A DNA stretch of 64,000 bases from Calditrichia bacterium (GCA_028284905.1 JANQQU010000043.1:186001-250000); one strand, 5' to 3'; shown: positions 30,416-37,071, numbered from the stretch's first letter. Program-made: numbers and translations. Notes: generated by a model from the letters alone, not told the origin.

Positions 30416-31201
30416 ATGCGCTTTGGAATCGTAACTGATACACATTATGCGAACATCGATCCGGTAGAAGACCGCTATTTTCGTGATTCTCTGGAAAAAA
30501 TGGCGGTTTGTATCGAGACAATGAATCGGGAAAAAGTAGATTTTCTGATAATGCTCGGTGATATTAAAGATCAGGATCCTGATCCGGTAGAAACCAACAC
30601 ATTGTTATATCTGGCTGAGATAGAATCCGCCTTTCGAAAATTTGAAGGGCCTTGCTACCATGTGCTTGGTAATCACGACATGGACAGCATTTCCCGCGAG
30701 CAATATTTTACCCTGGTAGAGAATAGTGGCATTGCAGCCGGAAAAGGACATTACAGCTTTCAACATAACGATGTCACATTTTTGGTGCTGGATGCCTGCT
30801 ATCGTCCGGATGGCGTGCCTTACAATAATGGTGATTTTGACTGGATGGAATCCTTTATTCCAAAAGAACAATTGGAGTGGTTAGAAGCGGCGCTGCAAAA
30901 CAACTCGCGGGAAACAGTTGTATTTACACACCAATTGTTGGACATGCCCGGGAAATATGGCATCAGCAACGCTGACGCTGTGAATGAAATTCTTGTTAAT
31001 ACCGGGAATGTTCGGACTGTTTTCCAGGGACATTATCATAAAGCACGGCAGGAAAAATTAAACGGGATAAACTACTATACATTAGCAGCAATGGTGGTTG
31101 GGCAGGGCAAAGAAAATGCCACTTACGCGATTGTAGAGTTGCTGGAAAATGGCGCTGTTAAAGTGAACGGATATGGTGCTGCGGAAGATGCTGCCTTTTA
31201 G
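30416..31201 (+). CDS. Calcineurin-like metallophosphoesterase
   Basis: 261 residues. All five phosphoesterase motifs are seen: DTH near residue 8-10, GDIKD near 48, GNHD near 84-87, FTHQ near 171 and GHYH near 208. No signal peptide, so it should be cytosolic and could cleave a phosphodiester or sugar phosphate. Downstream of the ROK repressor by 19 nt. Its last 4 nt overlap the end of the convergent YqeB-like gene. Confidence 0.9.
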   Translation: MRFGIVTDTHYANIDPVEDRYFRDSLEKMAVCIETMNREKVDFLIMLGDIKDQDPDPVETNTLLYLAEIESAFRKFEGPCYHVLGNHDMDSISREQYFTLVENSGIAAGKGHYSFQHNDVTFLVLDACYRPDGVPYNNGDFDWMESFIPKEQLEWLEAALQNNSRETVVFTHQLLDMPGKYGISNADAVNEILVNTGNVRTVFQGHYHKARQEKLNGINYYTLAAMVVGQGKENATYAIVELLENGAVKVNGYGAAEDAAF

Positions 31202-32064
31202 TCTGTTTGATTTTCCTTGCTTTTTTCTCCTGGTTGCCCATAACGCATAATCGCTTGCAGCGTTGCATTCGCGATTGCGTTTTCCCGATATCCCACTTTC
31301 CGATATGCATCATCTCCGCTACCCTGAAAAATCATGGCGACAGAGCTCCGTGCTGCTAAAAAACGCCCGCTTCTGGCGATTCCCCAAATTTGACCATCGA
31401 AAGGGGAGCGAATCTCAATATTATCAATTTTTCCCAGCGATTCATTCTGGCTAACCATTTCACCGTTCGATTTAGTGGATACCCACAATCCCTCCAATGG
31501 GGTATGGCAATAAGCAAAGGGATCATTGAAAAAATGGGCATCATTGGATGGTGGCTCAGCGGTATTGTCCGGGGAAACAATTTCTCCCAGCTGCCAGGAG
31601 TTTGCCGATGAGATTGCTAAATGACAATCTTTGCCGGGCGTATGAAGGGTTTGCAGGCCAATGACCAATGGTGCCATTGAAATAAGCGAAAGTGCTTCCA
31701 GTGGCTCGGTGATAGTGTTAACAATAACGGTCGGTTGCAGCGCTTCCAGCAACCAATCAAGATCCAGTTGATGTATCAGGGGAAGTCTGCGATCCTGCAA
31801 TATAAACTGAATGGATTCCTTTAGTTTTTCTTCAATGGAGAGAGTAGGGGACTCGGCTAATTGTTCATCGCTTAACAGGCTGGCGGTAACCGAATTAATC
31901 GTTTTACTGCCCTGGTAGATTGCATCCCCGAAAGACAGGTGATGTCGGAGGAGATTCTCTTTTTCATCCGCAGATATGACTACCGGGAATCCGGACTGAA
32001 AAAGGGTTGATGCAATAGTGCTGGCAATTTCATTGCCGCCGATGACACAGATCAGTTGCTTCAT
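31198..32064 (-). CDS. YqeB / EF2563-like protein
   Basis: 288 residues. The order of motifs follows the EF2563/YqeB family linked to selenium-dependent molybdenum hydroxylase maturation. VIGGNEIASTIASTLFQSGF corresponds to the family's GAGDIATG start, LLRHHLSFGDAIYQG to RR.VSF.EAVY.G, LVIGLQTLHTPGKDCHLAI to IGLGPGFTAG.DVH, and VGYRENAIANATLQAIM to the C-terminal ISDKALAI..GVLEA. Several family-invariant Gly, Asp and Arg are altered, so it may be a divergent or repurposed member. Last gene of a four-gene operon (33412 to 31198), 34 nt after the YqeC-like gene. No molybdenum hydroxylase gene is in the window. Confidence 0.6.
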   Translation of the reverse strand: MKQLICVIGGNEIASTIASTLFQSGFPVVISADEKENLLRHHLSFGDAIYQGSKTINSVTASLLSDEQLAESPTLSIEEKLKESIQFILQDRRLPLIHQLDLDWLLEALQPTVIVNTITEPLEALSLISMAPLVIGLQTLHTPGKDCHLAISSANSWQLGEIVSPDNTAEPPSNDAHFFNDPFAYCHTPLEGLWVSTKSNGEMVSQNESLGKIDNIEIRSPFDGQIWGIARSGRFLAARSSVAMIFQGSGDDAYRKVGYRENAIANATLQAIMRYGQPGEKSKENQTD

Positions 32065-32098
32065 GGTAAAGAACCTTTGTAATAAATCTCTAATATGA

Positions 32099-32767
32099 CT
32101 ATTGCAGAGTTTGCGGTAAAAATAACGGCCTGATAATATTTTGACTCAAATTACCAAGTGCAATATGCCGGATGCCCTTTTGGTGCAATTCCCGGGAAAA
32201 AGATATTGCCAAATTTTCGCGGGCAGTCACATCGATGCCATTAAAAAACAATAACGCCGGCCAGTCTTGAAAGAATAGGTGCCTGGTCGCAGACTGAAAA
32301 TCCTCCGAAAGCTGGTTTTGCGCTTTCCAATCGTCAATATCCACACAATAGACCAGCTGATCCCAAAATCCACGCTGCGCCCAGGAGGGTAAAACAGCCT
32401 GGCTTTTCGGGAAGGCGTTTAAATCGATTAAAAGATAATCTGCCGGCAATGCCTGACTGATAAACTCCAGCGACTGCCAGTTAAATCCTTCAACGATATT
32501 ATTGCGCAACTGCTTACCGGCAATTAGTATCCGCTGACAGGCAAACTCTTTGGATATTTGATTTACCAGAATTGGCAATTGCTTGCCAAGTACAACACTC
32601 CCTTTAACCGGCAGCTTTTGATCCTCATCGGAAATCAGCAAGACCCGCTTTCCTTTGCGGGCCAATTCTCCGGTAATACGGCGGACTAAAATATGCCGCC
32701 GGGCAGTGCCGCAAAAAGCTATGATTCGAAATTCGGGGTTTAGCAAAATACGGCTTGTAACTACCAT
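32099..32767 (-). CDS. YqeC-like accessory protein with degenerate P-loop
   Basis: 222 residues. The layout resembles YqeC, the partner of YqeB: an initial strand and loop (RIIAFCGTARRHI) where YqeC has the GAGGKTT P-loop, then ELARKGKRVLLIS for RGK.VLVTTTT, and ADYLLIDLNAFPKS where YqeC has ADG..L.EADG. The Walker-type Lys-Thr and the EADG motif are absent, so nucleotide binding is doubtful. It starts 7 nt after the PIN gene stop and is followed by the YqeB-like gene. Family assignment rests on motif order and neighbour, not on a database match. Confidence 0.5.
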   Translation of the reverse strand: MVVTSRILLNPEFRIIAFCGTARRHILVRRITGELARKGKRVLLISDEDQKLPVKGSVVLGKQLPILVNQISKEFACQRILIAGKQLRNNIVEGFNWQSLEFISQALPADYLLIDLNAFPKSQAVLPSWAQRGFWDQLVYCVDIDDWKAQNQLSEDFQSATRHLFFQDWPALLFFNGIDVTARENLAISFSRELHQKGIRHIALGNLSQNIIRPLFLPQTLQ

Positions 32768-32774
32768 GTTACTC

Positions 32775-33200
32775 TCATTCTTCTCGTTCGGGGATAACCC
32801 GCAAACCCAGCGAGCGATAATCTGCCCGTGTCGTGAGGATAGTATTGATCCTCCGGCGCTGCATCAACACATAACTGGCAAAATCATACACATCCAGGTC
32901 CAGATCCATATGTTGGCGCATCAGGCGAATTGCTTCTTTTTGGGTTCTGCGGCCAATCCAAAGAATACTTAAATACGTCCCTGTATAGGCCTCTTCGATT
33001 GTTGTGCTAAATTTGTTCGCAATTGGCACACCTACCACCCTTCGGATGTCGCTCAAGGCGATACCAACCGCAATGTTGTGCGTAAAAATTTTGTCGTTAT
33101 TATTTAACGAACTATTAAATTGCTCCACTATCTGTTCATGAAATGGCGCTGCCGGATTCATCAGTTGAACCCAGCCACTGGCATCGATAAATAACTTCAT
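32775..33200 (-). CDS. PIN-domain protein, VapC-like, active site incomplete
   Basis: 141 residues with PIN layout: MKLFIDASGW (first catalytic Asp, residue 6), THNIAVGIALSDIRR, LDVYDFASYVL (second Asp) and ILTTRADYRSLG. In active VapC-type RNases the second block holds a Glu (normally AE) and the last block a T-x-D; here the Glu is absent (VGIAL) and the T-x-D position is Arg. Two of the four acidic residues are thus missing, so RNase activity is questionable. The start overlaps the last base of the AbrB-like gene, as in toxin-antitoxin pairs, and the YqeC-like gene begins 7 nt after its stop. Confidence 0.75.
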   Translation of the reverse strand: MKLFIDASGWVQLMNPAAPFHEQIVEQFNSSLNNNDKIFTHNIAVGIALSDIRRVVGVPIANKFSTTIEEAYTGTYLSILWIGRRTQKEAIRLMRQHMDLDLDVYDFASYVLMQRRRINTILTTRADYRSLGLRVIPEREE

Positions 33201-33412
33201 TATCCCTCAGGTGTCTCGTTGGTGGTGGAATTATCCAGTAAGCGAAATAATGGGTTTTCGGATAGCATTAACTCCAGGCGATTGGATTTGATCTTTTTGA
33301 TGGAAATCTCAATACGATCGCCGTTCTGTATCCGAAGTTTCTCAAATACTTCCCGGGGGATTTTAATTTCTTTGCCGCTTTTTACTTCTGCAATAAAGGT
33401 CGCATATTTCAT
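33200..33412 (-). CDS. SpoVT/AbrB-family antitoxin-like DNA-binding protein
   Basis: 70 residues, swapped-hairpin AbrB fold: VKSGKEIKIPREVFEKLRIQ then GDRIEISI. In VapB/MazE antitoxins such a domain binds DNA and the tail neutralises the toxin; here the tail after residue 45 (LFRLLDNSTTNETPEG) is the likely partner-binding part. It is the first gene of the operon and is 1 nt overlapped by the PIN gene. Its ribosome-binding site (GAGGA) lies inside an inverted repeat. Confidence 0.82.
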   Translation of the reverse strand: MKYATFIAEVKSGKEIKIPREVFEKLRIQNGDRIEISIKKIKSNRLELMLSENPLFRLLDNSTTNETPEG

Positions 33413-33416
33413 TTAA

Positions 33417-33437
33417 TTTCCTCAGAGTTTGAGGAAA
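33417..33437 (-). promoter_or_regulatory. Inverted repeat over the ribosome-binding site of the AbrB-like gene
   Basis: Perfect 8-bp inverted repeat (TTTCCTCA / TGAGGAAA) with a 5-nt loop, ending 4 nt before the ATG at 33412. The minus-strand arm contains the ribosome-binding site GAGGA. It can act as an operator for the AbrB-like protein or as an RNA hairpin hiding the ribosome-binding site. The 33438-33781 region beyond it is AT-rich and I see no gene in it. Confidence 0.6.
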
Positions 33438-33781
33438 AATTAGCAATCTTTTTGAAAAGTTACAAGGTCTTTCTCCTGCAGCACAACGAACGAAATCAAT
33501 ACTGTTTTATCGATTTTACGATTATTCGAAATATCTTTTGTAAGATCTGAATTCAAAATAAGCGGTGAGATTAGCTGACGATTGATAGAAGTATAAAAAC
33601 TTAAATTAATTTTGTGAATAAATACTCGCCTTACTAAATTGAAAAACCGTTTTTTGTAAAAGTTCAAAAAATGGAATTGTTCTGATAACTAGATTTTAGC
33701 CGATGACTGCGATTGCATTGCCGTTCTGTCGTTCCTGTTAATTACGACCTTGATGCCTGCGCGCTTGATCGGGAGGTGACT

Positions 33782-34630
33782 ATGAAAAAAAGACAAATTA
33801 ATGTAGCTGTTCTGGACTTGTATGATAATGAACCTAACCAGGGAATGCGTTGTATTAAAGAAATTATAGAGAGCTGGGATGGGAAAATTGATGATCTGCC
33901 AGTGAGTTACAATATCTATGATGTGCGCTATAAGACGGAAGTGCCCAACCTGAAATATGATATCTATATTTCTTCCGGGGGCCCGGGAAGCCCCTATGAT
34001 GGGGAAGGATCAAAATGGGAAAAAGAATACTTCCGTTTATTAGACCGGATCTGGAATCACAACCAGCAAAATAACGAACAACGCAAGTTCCTTTTCTTTA
34101 TCTGCCATTCATTTCAGATGATGGCTCGTTTCTTCGATTTGGCTACTGTTCAGAAGCGCAATAAACAATCTTTCGGGATTATTCCGGTTACGAGAACAAA
34201 AGAAGCGCGGGCAGATCAACTGCTTGGAGAGTTGCCGGATACCTATTACGCCGCGGATTTTCGTCAGTTTGAGGTCGTTGCGCCAAAAGAAAACGTTTTC
34301 CGGGAACTGGATGCAAAACTATTATCCCGTGAAAAATTTCGGGTCGATCCCACAATGGAAAGAGCACTGATGGCAGTGCGCCTCTCCGATGAAATTTTCG
34401 GCACGCAATACCATCCGGAAGCGGATCCGATCAGCATGCTTTATCATTTTCAACAGCCGGAAAGAAAGACCCAGGTGGTCGCTGAATATGGTGAAGATCA
34501 ATATTACAATATGATCGAACACCTCGAAGACCCCACAAATATTCTGCTGACCAGAAGTAAAATACTTCCGGTTTTTCTTAAAACGGCAATTGAGCAAATC
34601 GCTAAAAATTCTGATGACAATATCCACTGA
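33782..34630 (+). CDS. Class I glutamine amidotransferase-like protein
   Basis: 282 residues from the ATG at 33782, preceded by a perfect GGAGGTGA; an in-frame start at 33713 is possible but weaker. The GATase1 fold shows SGGPGSP near residue 63, the nucleophile Cys in CHSFQMM near 109, and QYHPEAD near 206 with the catalytic His and Glu. No synthase domain is attached, so it may work with a separate partner or be a glutamine hydrolase of unknown pathway. The YceH-like gene follows 198 nt downstream. Confidence 0.85.
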   Translation: MKKRQINVAVLDLYDNEPNQGMRCIKEIIESWDGKIDDLPVSYNIYDVRYKTEVPNLKYDIYISSGGPGSPYDGEGSKWEKEYFRLLDRIWNHNQQNNEQRKFLFFICHSFQMMARFFDLATVQKRNKQSFGIIPVTRTKEARADQLLGELPDTYYAADFRQFEVVAPKENVFRELDAKLLSREKFRVDPTMERALMAVRLSDEIFGTQYHPEADPISMLYHFQQPERKTQVVAEYGEDQYYNMIEHLEDPTNILLTRSKILPVFLKTAIEQIAKNSDDNIH

Positions 34631-34636
34631 TCTTAA

Positions 34637-34672
34637 CGTCAGCCTTTGGATAATGATCAACGAAGGCTGACG
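34637..34672 (+). terminator. Stem-loop after the amidotransferase gene, possible terminator
   Basis: 10-bp stem (CGTCAGCCTT / AAGGCTGACG) with a 16-nt loop, 6 nt after the stop codon. There is no T run, so it may act as an RNA-stabilising hairpin. Confidence 0.4.
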
Positions 34673-34828
34673 AATTCTCTCGTAGATTACCTCTCTTTTT
34701 CTTTGCATCTTAATCGTTCATTACATAACATTGTTAGATGAAAATTGACTGATATTGATGAGTCGGTGCTTCATGCTAATTTTCAGGGTTAAGTACCGGC
34801 AAGGAGTGCAACGGAAGGATGCCCGCTG

Positions 34829-35503
34829 ATGGAAGATTTTATTCGTGAAGAGGAAATGCGCGTTCTCGGGGTATTGATTGAAAAGCAAATGACCACCCCT
34901 GAATACTATCCAATGACTGTAAACAGCATTAAAACCGCCTGTAATCAAAAAACCAACAGATATCCGATTGTCGACTATGAAAGTGATTTTGTCGAGGATA
35001 TTATCAGCGGTTTGCGCCGCCGGAAGATGCTTGTTGTCGTTAGTGGTCCGGGCATGCGTTCGAAAAAGTATGAGCACAACTTCAAGTCATTACTGTTCCT
35101 TAGTCAAAAAGAGATGGCTGTGCTCGCAGTGCTGATGCTGCGAGGCCCCCAAACGGTCGGGGAACTTCGTGGCCGCACGGAGCGGATGGTGAAATTTGAC
35201 GGTCTGGATGAGGTGGAAGAAACCCTGAAAGATATGATAGTTGAGAGTCGCCAGCCATTTTCATTGGTTCAAAAACTACCAATGATGCCGGGGCAAAAAG
35301 AGCATCGTTTCGTTCAAACTTTAACCGGTGCACCCAACATCGAAAAATTGACGGCAGAACTCGTTTATGACACACCAACCTCCAGTAGCCGTCCCAGCCA
35401 AAGTGCGCGAATTGATGAGCTTACCGAAAAAGTAGATACACTTAGCCAGGAACTGGCAGAATTAAAAGCTGCGTTTGATAAATTCCGCCAGGAATTCGAA
35501 TAA
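34829..35503 (+). CDS. YceH-family protein (DUF480)
   Basis: 224 residues. The N-terminal block LGVLIEKQMTTPEYYPMTVN and ACNQKTNRYPIVDYES match the DUF480/YceH signature, two tandem winged-helix domains. The C-terminal 35 residues are a coiled coil (LTEKVDTLSQELAELKAAF). Molecular function of YceH is not established. It is followed 113 nt later by the M48 peptidase gene on the same strand. Confidence 0.88.
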   Translation: MEDFIREEEMRVLGVLIEKQMTTPEYYPMTVNSIKTACNQKTNRYPIVDYESDFVEDIISGLRRRKMLVVVSGPGMRSKKYEHNFKSLLFLSQKEMAVLAVLMLRGPQTVGELRGRTERMVKFDGLDEVEETLKDMIVESRQPFSLVQKLPMMPGQKEHRFVQTLTGAPNIEKLTAELVYDTPTSSSRPSQSARIDELTEKVDTLSQELAELKAAFDKFRQEFE

Positions 35504-35616
35504 AGATTACCAATTATGCATCTTTTCTCTTGCATTAATGCCGGAGAGATGATATGAATGTTCTGAGGGGAAGCGGACAATTAACAACGAACCGTAACAA
35601 AACACAGGATTAAGTT

Positions 35617-37071
35617 ATGAGAAAAAAGCAGGTAGTTCAAGGGATCAGTTTTCTGATGCTGATTAGTTTGTTACTGTGGGGATTGTCCTGCGCGGTAAAC
35701 CCGGTAACCGGTAAAAGAGAGTTTATGCTGTTATCGGAGGCGGAAGAGATTGCCCTCGGGCAGCAGTCAGATGGCCAGGTGGTCAGCGCTTACGGCGTCT
35801 ACAATGATGCGAAGATTACTAAATTTGTTGCTGATGTCGGAAATCGGATGGTACCGGTATCGCACCGCCCTAATCTGAAATATGAATTTAAGGTGCTGGA
35901 CTCTCCGGTGATCAATGCCTTCGCTGTGCCGGGAGGCTTCGTTTACATCACCCGTGGAATTCTTGCATATATGAACAATGAGGCAGAATTCGCTGGCGTT
36001 ATGGGGCACGAAATTGGGCATATAACCGCCCGCCACTCTGCCAAGCAATATAGCCGGGCGCAATTGGCGACGATTGGATTAGGTATTGGAACTGTAGTTT
36101 CAGAAGATTTTGCCCAATTGGCCGGACTGGCCCAAACCGGTCTCGGTTTAATCTTCCTGAGATTTGGACGGGATGCCGAGCGTGAATCCGATCGCCTGGG
36201 TGTGGAATATTCTACCCGTATCGGTTACGATGCCCGGGAAATGGCAAACTTTTTTCAGACGCTGGATCGCATGTCTCCCGGAGAACGGGGCGGATTACCC
36301 GGATGGTTCTCTACGCATCCCAGTCCTTCCGAGCGCGTCGGGAACATCAAATCTTTGTCTACCCAATGGCAACAGGATCTCAACAAAAATCCTTCTAACT
36401 TAAAAGTAAATCGGGATGGCTTCCTGGCGATGTTGGAAGGAATGGTTTACGGAGAAGACCCCAAGAATGGTTACATCGAAGGCAATATGTTCTATCATCC
36501 GGAGATGAGATTTCAGTTTGGTTTTCCCGCAAATTGGAAAGCGGTAAATTCTGCCAGTCAGGTGCAGGTAGTTAGTGATGACGAAAAAGCAGCGGTCATC
36601 TTATCCCTCGCTTCCGGTTCGATTGCTGCGGTTTCCAGTAAATTCCTTACGGATAGCAAAGCAACAGTGATACGCTCCAGCGATAATGCCGTTAATGGAT
36701 TCCCGGCAAAGCAGGTGATTTCGGATATTGCCAGCCAGCAGGGGACATTACGAGTGGTTTCTTATTTCATCCAATACAACAATAATATCTTTGTTTTTCA
36801 TGGATTTAGCTCTCAGCAAACCTTCTCGAATTACCAGGCAAAGCTGGAATCGGTAATGAAGAATTTCCGCAAGCTGACCGACCCGGCCAAGATCAATGTC
36901 AAGCCGGATCGTATTCGAATTAAAACCGTTAGCCGGCAAATGTCTGCCCGGGATGCATTCCTTTCCCTGGGAGTGGCGGATAAAGATTTGGAAAATATTG
37001 CTTTGATGAATGGCATGCTTTTGACGGATGTTATTCCGGCAAGAACGAAAGTTAAAACGGTTGGCAAATAA
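35617..37071 (+). CDS. M48-family metalloprotease, secreted lipoprotein
   Basis: 484 residues. A lipoprotein signal ends at LSC (Cys near 25). The zinc motif GHEIGHITARHS lies near residue 131-141, and ERESDRLGVEYS supplies the third ligand. This matches BepA/LoiP-like periplasmic peptidases that clear misassembled outer-membrane proteins. A C-terminal beta-rich domain (residues 290-410) and a final small LysM-like stretch (SLGVADKDLENIALMNG) follow. A strong terminator closes the gene. Confidence 0.9.
   Translation: MRKKQVVQGISFLMLISLLLWGLSCAVNPVTGKREFMLLSEAEEIALGQQSDGQVVSAYGVYNDAKITKFVADVGNRMVPVSHRPNLKYEFKVLDSPVINAFAVPGGFVYITRGILAYMNNEAEFAGVMGHEIGHITARHSAKQYSRAQLATIGLGIGTVVSEDFAQLAGLAQTGLGLIFLRFGRDAERESDRLGVEYSTRIGYDAREMANFFQTLDRMSPGERGGLPGWFSTHPSPSERVGNIKSLSTQWQQDLNKNPSNLKVNRDGFLAMLEGMVYGEDPKNGYIEGNMFYHPEMRFQFGFPANWKAVNSASQVQVVSDDEKAAVILSLASGSIAAVSSKFLTDSKATVIRSSDNAVNGFPAKQVISDIASQQGTLRVVSYFIQYNNNIFVFHGFSSQQTFSNYQAKLESVMKNFRKLTDPAKINVKPDRIRIKTVSRQMSARDAFLSLGVADKDLENIALMNGMLLTDVIPARTKVKTVGK

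Follow-up and report, generated by a model that had tools for sequence, protein, structure and literature searches.

An AbrB–PIN–YqeC–YqeB gene block of the class Calditrichia with eroded signature motifs

Described systems and the Calditrichia block

Two described systems are among the closest to a four-gene block located in a 64,000-nucleotide stretch of DNA from a Calditrichia bacterium (GCA_028284905.1, JANQQU010000043.1:186001-250000; hereafter the window). One is the type II VapBC toxin–antitoxin pair. In Shigella, an AbrB-type VapB and VapC are described to assemble into an operator-binding octamer, and an arginine from the tail of VapB enters the active site of VapC (PMC3384007). The other is the YqeB/YqeC pair: TIGR03309, the YqeB family, was introduced to mark selenium-dependent molybdenum hydroxylases, its scores falling sharply to homologues that come largely from species lacking selD (PMC2276186). 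PMC11448449 reports that C. difficile requires YqeB for the selenium-dependent use of purines, that loss of YqeC has no clear phenotype there, and that the labile selenium cofactor is the least understood use of selenium. It has been suggested that either of YqeB and YqeC, where it occurs by itself, may function in processes unrelated to selenium (PMC5029168), and the Calditrichia proteins fit that group.

The block encodes, in this order, an AbrB-like protein, a PIN-domain protein and proteins related to YqeC and YqeB (Table 1). It was followed through 40 genomes of the little-studied class Calditrichia, grouped f1 to f6, in which the genes at each locus were called by script; these are drafts, so that absences are provisional. 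An earlier note on this DNA had proposed that the block is a module reused after parallel loss of catalysis, and an open reading frame (ORF) check confirms the coordinates, single direction and spacing it gave for the four genes. The same gene order, looked for in relatives, is complete in 19 of the 40 genomes, from four families. The four ORFs are real genes, as this order recurs across the class and their ratios of non-synonymous to synonymous substitution rates (dN/dS) lie well below 1.

The reading we favour, tentatively and at a little short of an even chance, is that of a vertically inherited Calditrichia operon for a VapBC-type complex that has been domesticated and is not toxic, joined by non-catalytic partners derived from YqeC and YqeB. 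Its core would be two VapBC-type proteins, one with the AbrB fold and the other a PIN protein with an incomplete ribonuclease site; the two probably still bind each other and would form a DNA-binding, self-regulating complex instead of a toxin–antitoxin. Such a structural DNA-binding pair is suggested by the short AbrB tail without an evident conserved arginine together with the incomplete PIN site. The downstream genes would be relics of a YqeC–YqeB pair, with YqeB keeping its two-domain fold. Since folds suited to binding are kept and the P-loop and YqeB motifs are lost, their products may serve as non-catalytic binding partners or as a ligand-sensing input, in a role that would be independent of selenium-dependent molybdenum hydroxylases. 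We infer complex formation, DNA binding, the loss of toxicity and catalysis and a regulatory or sensing role from these features, a binding or regulatory function being put forward as a hypothesis. A more elaborate form of the proposal, which we regard as doubtful, is a four-part non-catalytic DNA-binding sensor in which YqeB would hold a ligand, a pseudo-nucleoside triphosphatase YqeC would act as a gate and a VapBC-derived repressor would control an amino-acid/vitamin operon. YqeB/YqeC relatives that persist without detected hydroxylases could separate a binding role from the selenium pathway, and the block would be a further example of a VapBC pair that has become a fixed component of the cell throughout a class. 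Caldithrix abyssi has been cultured, which makes the question testable.

The four proteins and the motif erosion in three of them

The AbrB-like protein yields weak NCBIfam matches to MazE/AbrB models, the best being NF050106 (E = 5.8e-4). It has 27 relatives in the class (E between 1e-12 and 1e-20) and three more in genomes G003, G016 and G019. The protein ends in a short tail with an NPL motif conserved in the class, and the tail alignment contains no evident conserved arginine of the VapC-neutralising kind. For the PIN protein, no direct family match was obtained, and the class profile matches VapC20 (5WZF, E = 6.4e-7). Mapped on VapC20, the window protein keeps the first and third acidic residues of the active site and misses the second and fourth, with an Asp two residues past position 4, so that the earlier note was right in stating that two of four acids are missing. 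The full tetrad is found in none of the 26 PIN sequences tabulated. Asp1 is invariant, and the remaining acids vary by lineage: positions 1 and 3 are kept in f2 and f3, 1, 2 and 3 in G005, 1 and 4 in G016, and 1, 2 and 4 in most f5 and f6 members, where position 3 is His or another residue. Asp6, W10, W81, R85 and P137 are invariant. A separate VapC20-like protein in G006 (L131) has all four acids, as judged by eye.

The pair resembles type II VapBC by its closely spaced antitoxin-then-toxin gene order with overlap, its AbrB-like partner and a VapC-related PIN fold. It differs from VapBC by a tetrad that is incomplete in all examples examined, by the short AbrB tail, and by being syntenic, vertically inherited and linked to YqeC and YqeB.

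The YqeC-like protein of the window has no significant match to the family models PF19842 and TIGR03172. The name is nonetheless right, because the class profile matches YqeC proteins from outside Calditrichia whose genes adjoin YqeB or lie close to it (E from 1e-10 to 2e-7) and because two orthologues match PF19842: that of G007 exceeds its cut-off (E = 2.8e-7) and that of G016 is clear (E = 1.9e-17), both staying below the TIGR03172 cut-off. The G016 protein, encoded at the same position in the block, has an intact P-loop, GGGGKTT, and reads FIGGGGKTTLIQ and FIEADSTKG. Alignment with this intact relative confirms that the window protein lacks GGKTT and EADG: it has FCGTARRHILV for FIGGGGKTTLI and LLIDLNA for FIEADST. 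The P-loop is also lost in the other class members aligned, EAD[GS] and GGGGKTT being found together in G016 only. In G016 (L126, G016:C247), the YqeC gene is followed by carboxyltransferase and enoyl-CoA hydratase genes.

The AlphaFold2 model of the YqeC-like protein (predicted local distance difference test, pLDDT, 87.6; predicted template modelling score, pTM, 0.86) retrieves with Foldseek the SIMIBI P-loop nucleoside triphosphatases FtsY, UreG, HypB, the MinD-like FlhG and MeaB. The predicted fold is thus of the SIMIBI type without the P-loop residues. It is similar to that of the metallochaperone GTPases UreG and HypB and of FtsY and MinD, from which it differs by the absence of those residues and by moderate template modelling scores (~0.5 by query length). 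PDB sequence searches with the YqeC and YqeB profiles returned only short nucleotide-binding-site or chance matches.

The YqeB-like protein matches TIGR03309 directly (E = 7.1e-24) over positions 2–255 of the 256 of the profile, a full-length homology, with a score of 84.6 bits that is far under the cut-off of 220. None of 60 relatives reaches this cut-off. Compared with eight non-Calditrichia YqeB proteins, which supplied the motif list, the Calditrichia proteins lack GPGF, RGHNLG, TGxPG, GDIDPR and ISDK, in agreement with the changes at invariant residues described in the earlier note; several glycines remain, seven of them invariant in 24 Calditrichia YqeB proteins. The predicted model (pLDDT 92.1, pTM 0.91) comprises an N-terminal nucleotide-binding-like domain and a C-terminal barrel-sandwich hybrid domain. 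In local Foldseek comparisons, the latter resembles BesA (69 columns, 1.5 Å), the aspartoacylase family and carboxylases, and weaker dinucleotide-binding matches are obtained. This agrees with the likening of YqeB to biotin carboxyl carrier protein in PMC11448449. Taken together, the family names hold, through VapC20 for the PIN protein, directly for YqeB and via intermediates for YqeC, the AbrB/MazE assignment being weak by hidden Markov models. Compared with the described pair of EF2563-type YqeB (TIGR03309) and YqeC (TIGR03172/PF19842), the Calditrichia proteins share near-full-length homology, gene adjacency and occurrence with SelD, whereas they differ by the sub-cut-off YqeB scores, the loss of the YqeB motifs and, except in G016, of the P-loop, the linkage to AbrB–PIN and the lack of a tie to molybdenum hydroxylases.

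Inheritance, selection and competing explanations

The complete block is present in G000, the source genome (f1), in G007 and G009 (f2), in G008, G010 and G012 (f3) and in 13 genomes of f5. PIN is found in 32 of the 40 genomes, the G002 copy being cut by a contig end and the other 31 being preceded by AbrB. YqeC is complete in 20 genomes, with a fragment in G001, and YqeB occurs in 31, its G011 and G015 copies being cut by contig ends. Nine genomes (G005, G006, G034 and six of f6) have AbrB–PIN–YqeB without YqeC; G016 has AbrB–PIN–YqeC without YqeB, and G003 and G019 AbrB–PIN alone. Because YqeC is missing in nine runs and YqeB in G003, G016 and G019, the four proteins do not form an obligate complex, and AbrB–PIN is the core. 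In G026 (L069, G026:C169; 97% complete), YqeB directly follows the eIF2B-like gene, and AbrB, PIN and YqeC were not found. The PIN frame of G036 (L065, G036:C194:6360-6782), a complete-block genome, contains an in-frame TAA, which is possibly a recent inactivation or an assembly error.

In the PIN tree, the number of family changes is the minimum, and the YqeB tree needs one more, caused by the f5 member G025 placed among f6; inheritance therefore looks largely vertical. Orthologous PIN proteins score 154–214 bits within Calditrichia, against a maximum of 81 bits elsewhere in the 385 genomes searched, and no AbrB or PIN relative lies near any of 18 non-Calditrichia YqeB loci. On these two grounds, the four-gene linkage appears to be restricted to Calditrichia as far as searched. 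A scan of genome contigs with the window YqeB as query gave no relatives, and a literature search found no published report of the linkage in the texts available to it.

The sequences support the view that PIN, YqeC and YqeB are eroded in catalytic or signature motifs yet under purifying selection. In the sole unsaturated pair, G005/G006 (dS 0.23–0.32), dN/dS is 0.11–0.15 for PIN and 0.15–0.20 for YqeB. For YqeC, one maximum-likelihood estimate of dN/dS is 0.79, against 0.07–0.08 by two other methods. Loss of catalysis may be proposed for these proteins from their sequences; to our knowledge, no catalysis has been demonstrated for YqeB or YqeC that could be lost. The motif losses were neither simultaneous nor uniform. 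In G016, YqeC retains its P-loop next to a PIN from which two acids are already gone, the lineages have lost different PIN acids, and YqeC and YqeB drop out separately. From the earlier proposal of a reused module, the linkage, the motif erosion and the absence of a required hydroxylase tie are thus retained, and the parallel loss is not.

Molybdenum hydroxylase and selenium genes were looked for elsewhere in the source genome, which contains four matches to PF02738 and one to SelD (C21:22816-23739) with one in-frame TGA, a probable selenocysteine codon. The TGA is common to many class members, others having SelD without it. Among the 40 genomes, 25 have both YqeB and PF02738, six have YqeB without PF02738, eight have PF02738 without YqeB and one has neither. 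Four of the six (G020, G022, G023 and G035) are f6 genomes of one genus, 85–96% complete, that contain AbrB, PIN and YqeB; the remaining two reach 62% and 73% completeness. The data do not support an obligatory link to molybdenum hydroxylases: these four genomes have AbrB–PIN–YqeB without a detected hydroxylase, and eight have a hydroxylase without YqeB. SelD exceeds its cut-off in all 31 genomes with YqeB and in 38 of the 40, and its co-occurrence is therefore not discriminating; in G016, with its intact YqeC, a SelD match above cut-off is absent. YqeB thus lies in SelD-positive genomes and does not track molybdenum hydroxylases.

It is unlikely, in our view, that the block still matures selenium-dependent molybdenum hydroxylases through sequence-diverged proteins whose expression is under AbrB–PIN control. 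The PF02738 and SelD matches of the source genome would fit, and the frequent loss of YqeC is consistent with C. difficile needing YqeB and not clearly YqeC (PMC11448449). Such a role is at odds with the four f6 genomes without detected hydroxylase and the eight hydroxylase genomes without YqeB, with the low YqeB scores and lost signature motifs throughout the class, and with annotated neighbours (cutA, an eIF2B-like gene, pdxST and an alanine symporter) that include no hydroxylase. It is also improbable that AbrB–PIN is an active, specialised VapBC module whose active site is altered, with the YqeC/YqeB relics as passengers. Although the overlapping VapB-then-VapC order, the relation to VapC20, the invariant Asp1 and the three acids of most f5/f6 members speak for activity, the full tetrad is never found, each genome has a single syntenic orthologue inherited with the families, unlike patchy toxin–antitoxin modules, and the AbrB tail is devoid of an evident conserved neutralising arginine such as that described for Shigella (PMC3384007). 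Finally, YqeC and YqeB might be decaying remnants on their way out, with AbrB–PIN as the sole working part, a view to which we give little credence: the separate absences of the two genes and the loss of their signature motifs would be expected, whereas frames open class-wide, dN/dS below 1, confident and well-folded predicted models and the seven invariant glycines of YqeB argue for retention.

Several observations weigh against the domesticated complex that we favour. The three-acid PIN proteins of G005 and most f5/f6 members could keep some activity. Most block genomes also carry molybdenum hydroxylases and SelD, so that some members of the class may retain a residual link to these enzymes. 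The independent loss of YqeC and YqeB speaks against a stable four-part complex, and a search upstream of AbrB found no conserved operator. As for selection, YqeC is absent from the unsaturated pair, and the other pairs, which point the same way, have large or saturated dS.

Gene layout and neighbourhood

The block lies in an 8.55 Mb genome. From AbrB to YqeB, its genes are separated by a 1-nucleotide overlap (TAATG), a 7-nucleotide gap and a 34-nucleotide gap. In the C. abyssi-like genome G017, each gene of the block overlaps the next, by 4, 4 and 1 nucleotides.

Table 1. Coordinates of the block and its neighbours in the window
Feature	Position	Strand	Length	Remarks
AbrB/SpoVT-type (MazE/VapB-like) gene	33412-33200	minus	70 aa	ATG start
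PIN-domain gene, VapC20-like	33200-32775	minus	141 aa	ATG start
YqeC-derived gene	32767-32099	minus	222 aa	ATG start
YqeB-derived gene	32064-31198	minus	288 aa	ATG start
Metallophosphoesterase gene	30416-31201	plus		convergent; its end overlaps the YqeB-derived ORF by 4 nt
Class-I glutamine amidotransferase-like gene, DUF480 gene, then 484-aa ORF	33713-37071			divergent neighbours of the block
Inverted repeat	33417-33437			across the AbrB ribosome-binding region

The inverted repeat, TTTCCTCA-AACTC-TGAGGAAA, is the sole strong one in the window. It was not found in relatives and was therefore dropped as a candidate operator. A defence-system reading was likewise set aside, PADLOC giving a single weak match of the AbrB-like protein to HEC-02B (E = 0.032).

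In f5 and f6, the block closes a long co-directional run, commonly with pdxS, pdxT, cutA and the eIF2B-like gene; in several genomes, accC, gcvH and response regulator genes lie at a greater distance upstream. In f4, AbrB is preceded by an eIF2B-like gene and by a gene of cutA size, the likeness to CutA being clear in G016. A sodium:alanine symporter gene often lies downstream of YqeB in f2, f3 and f5. The cutA, eIF2B, pdx and symporter neighbours are absent beside the f1 block; pdxST, accC, gcvH and the symporter were weighed as functional partners and, for this reason, not taken as essential. No molybdenum hydroxylase gene adjoining the block was recognised in the annotated neighbourhoods. 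The 484-residue ORF of the divergent neighbourhood reads as M48-type peptidase-like by eye, and the glutamine amidotransferase-like and DUF480 genes adjoin the block also in G005, G006 and G003.

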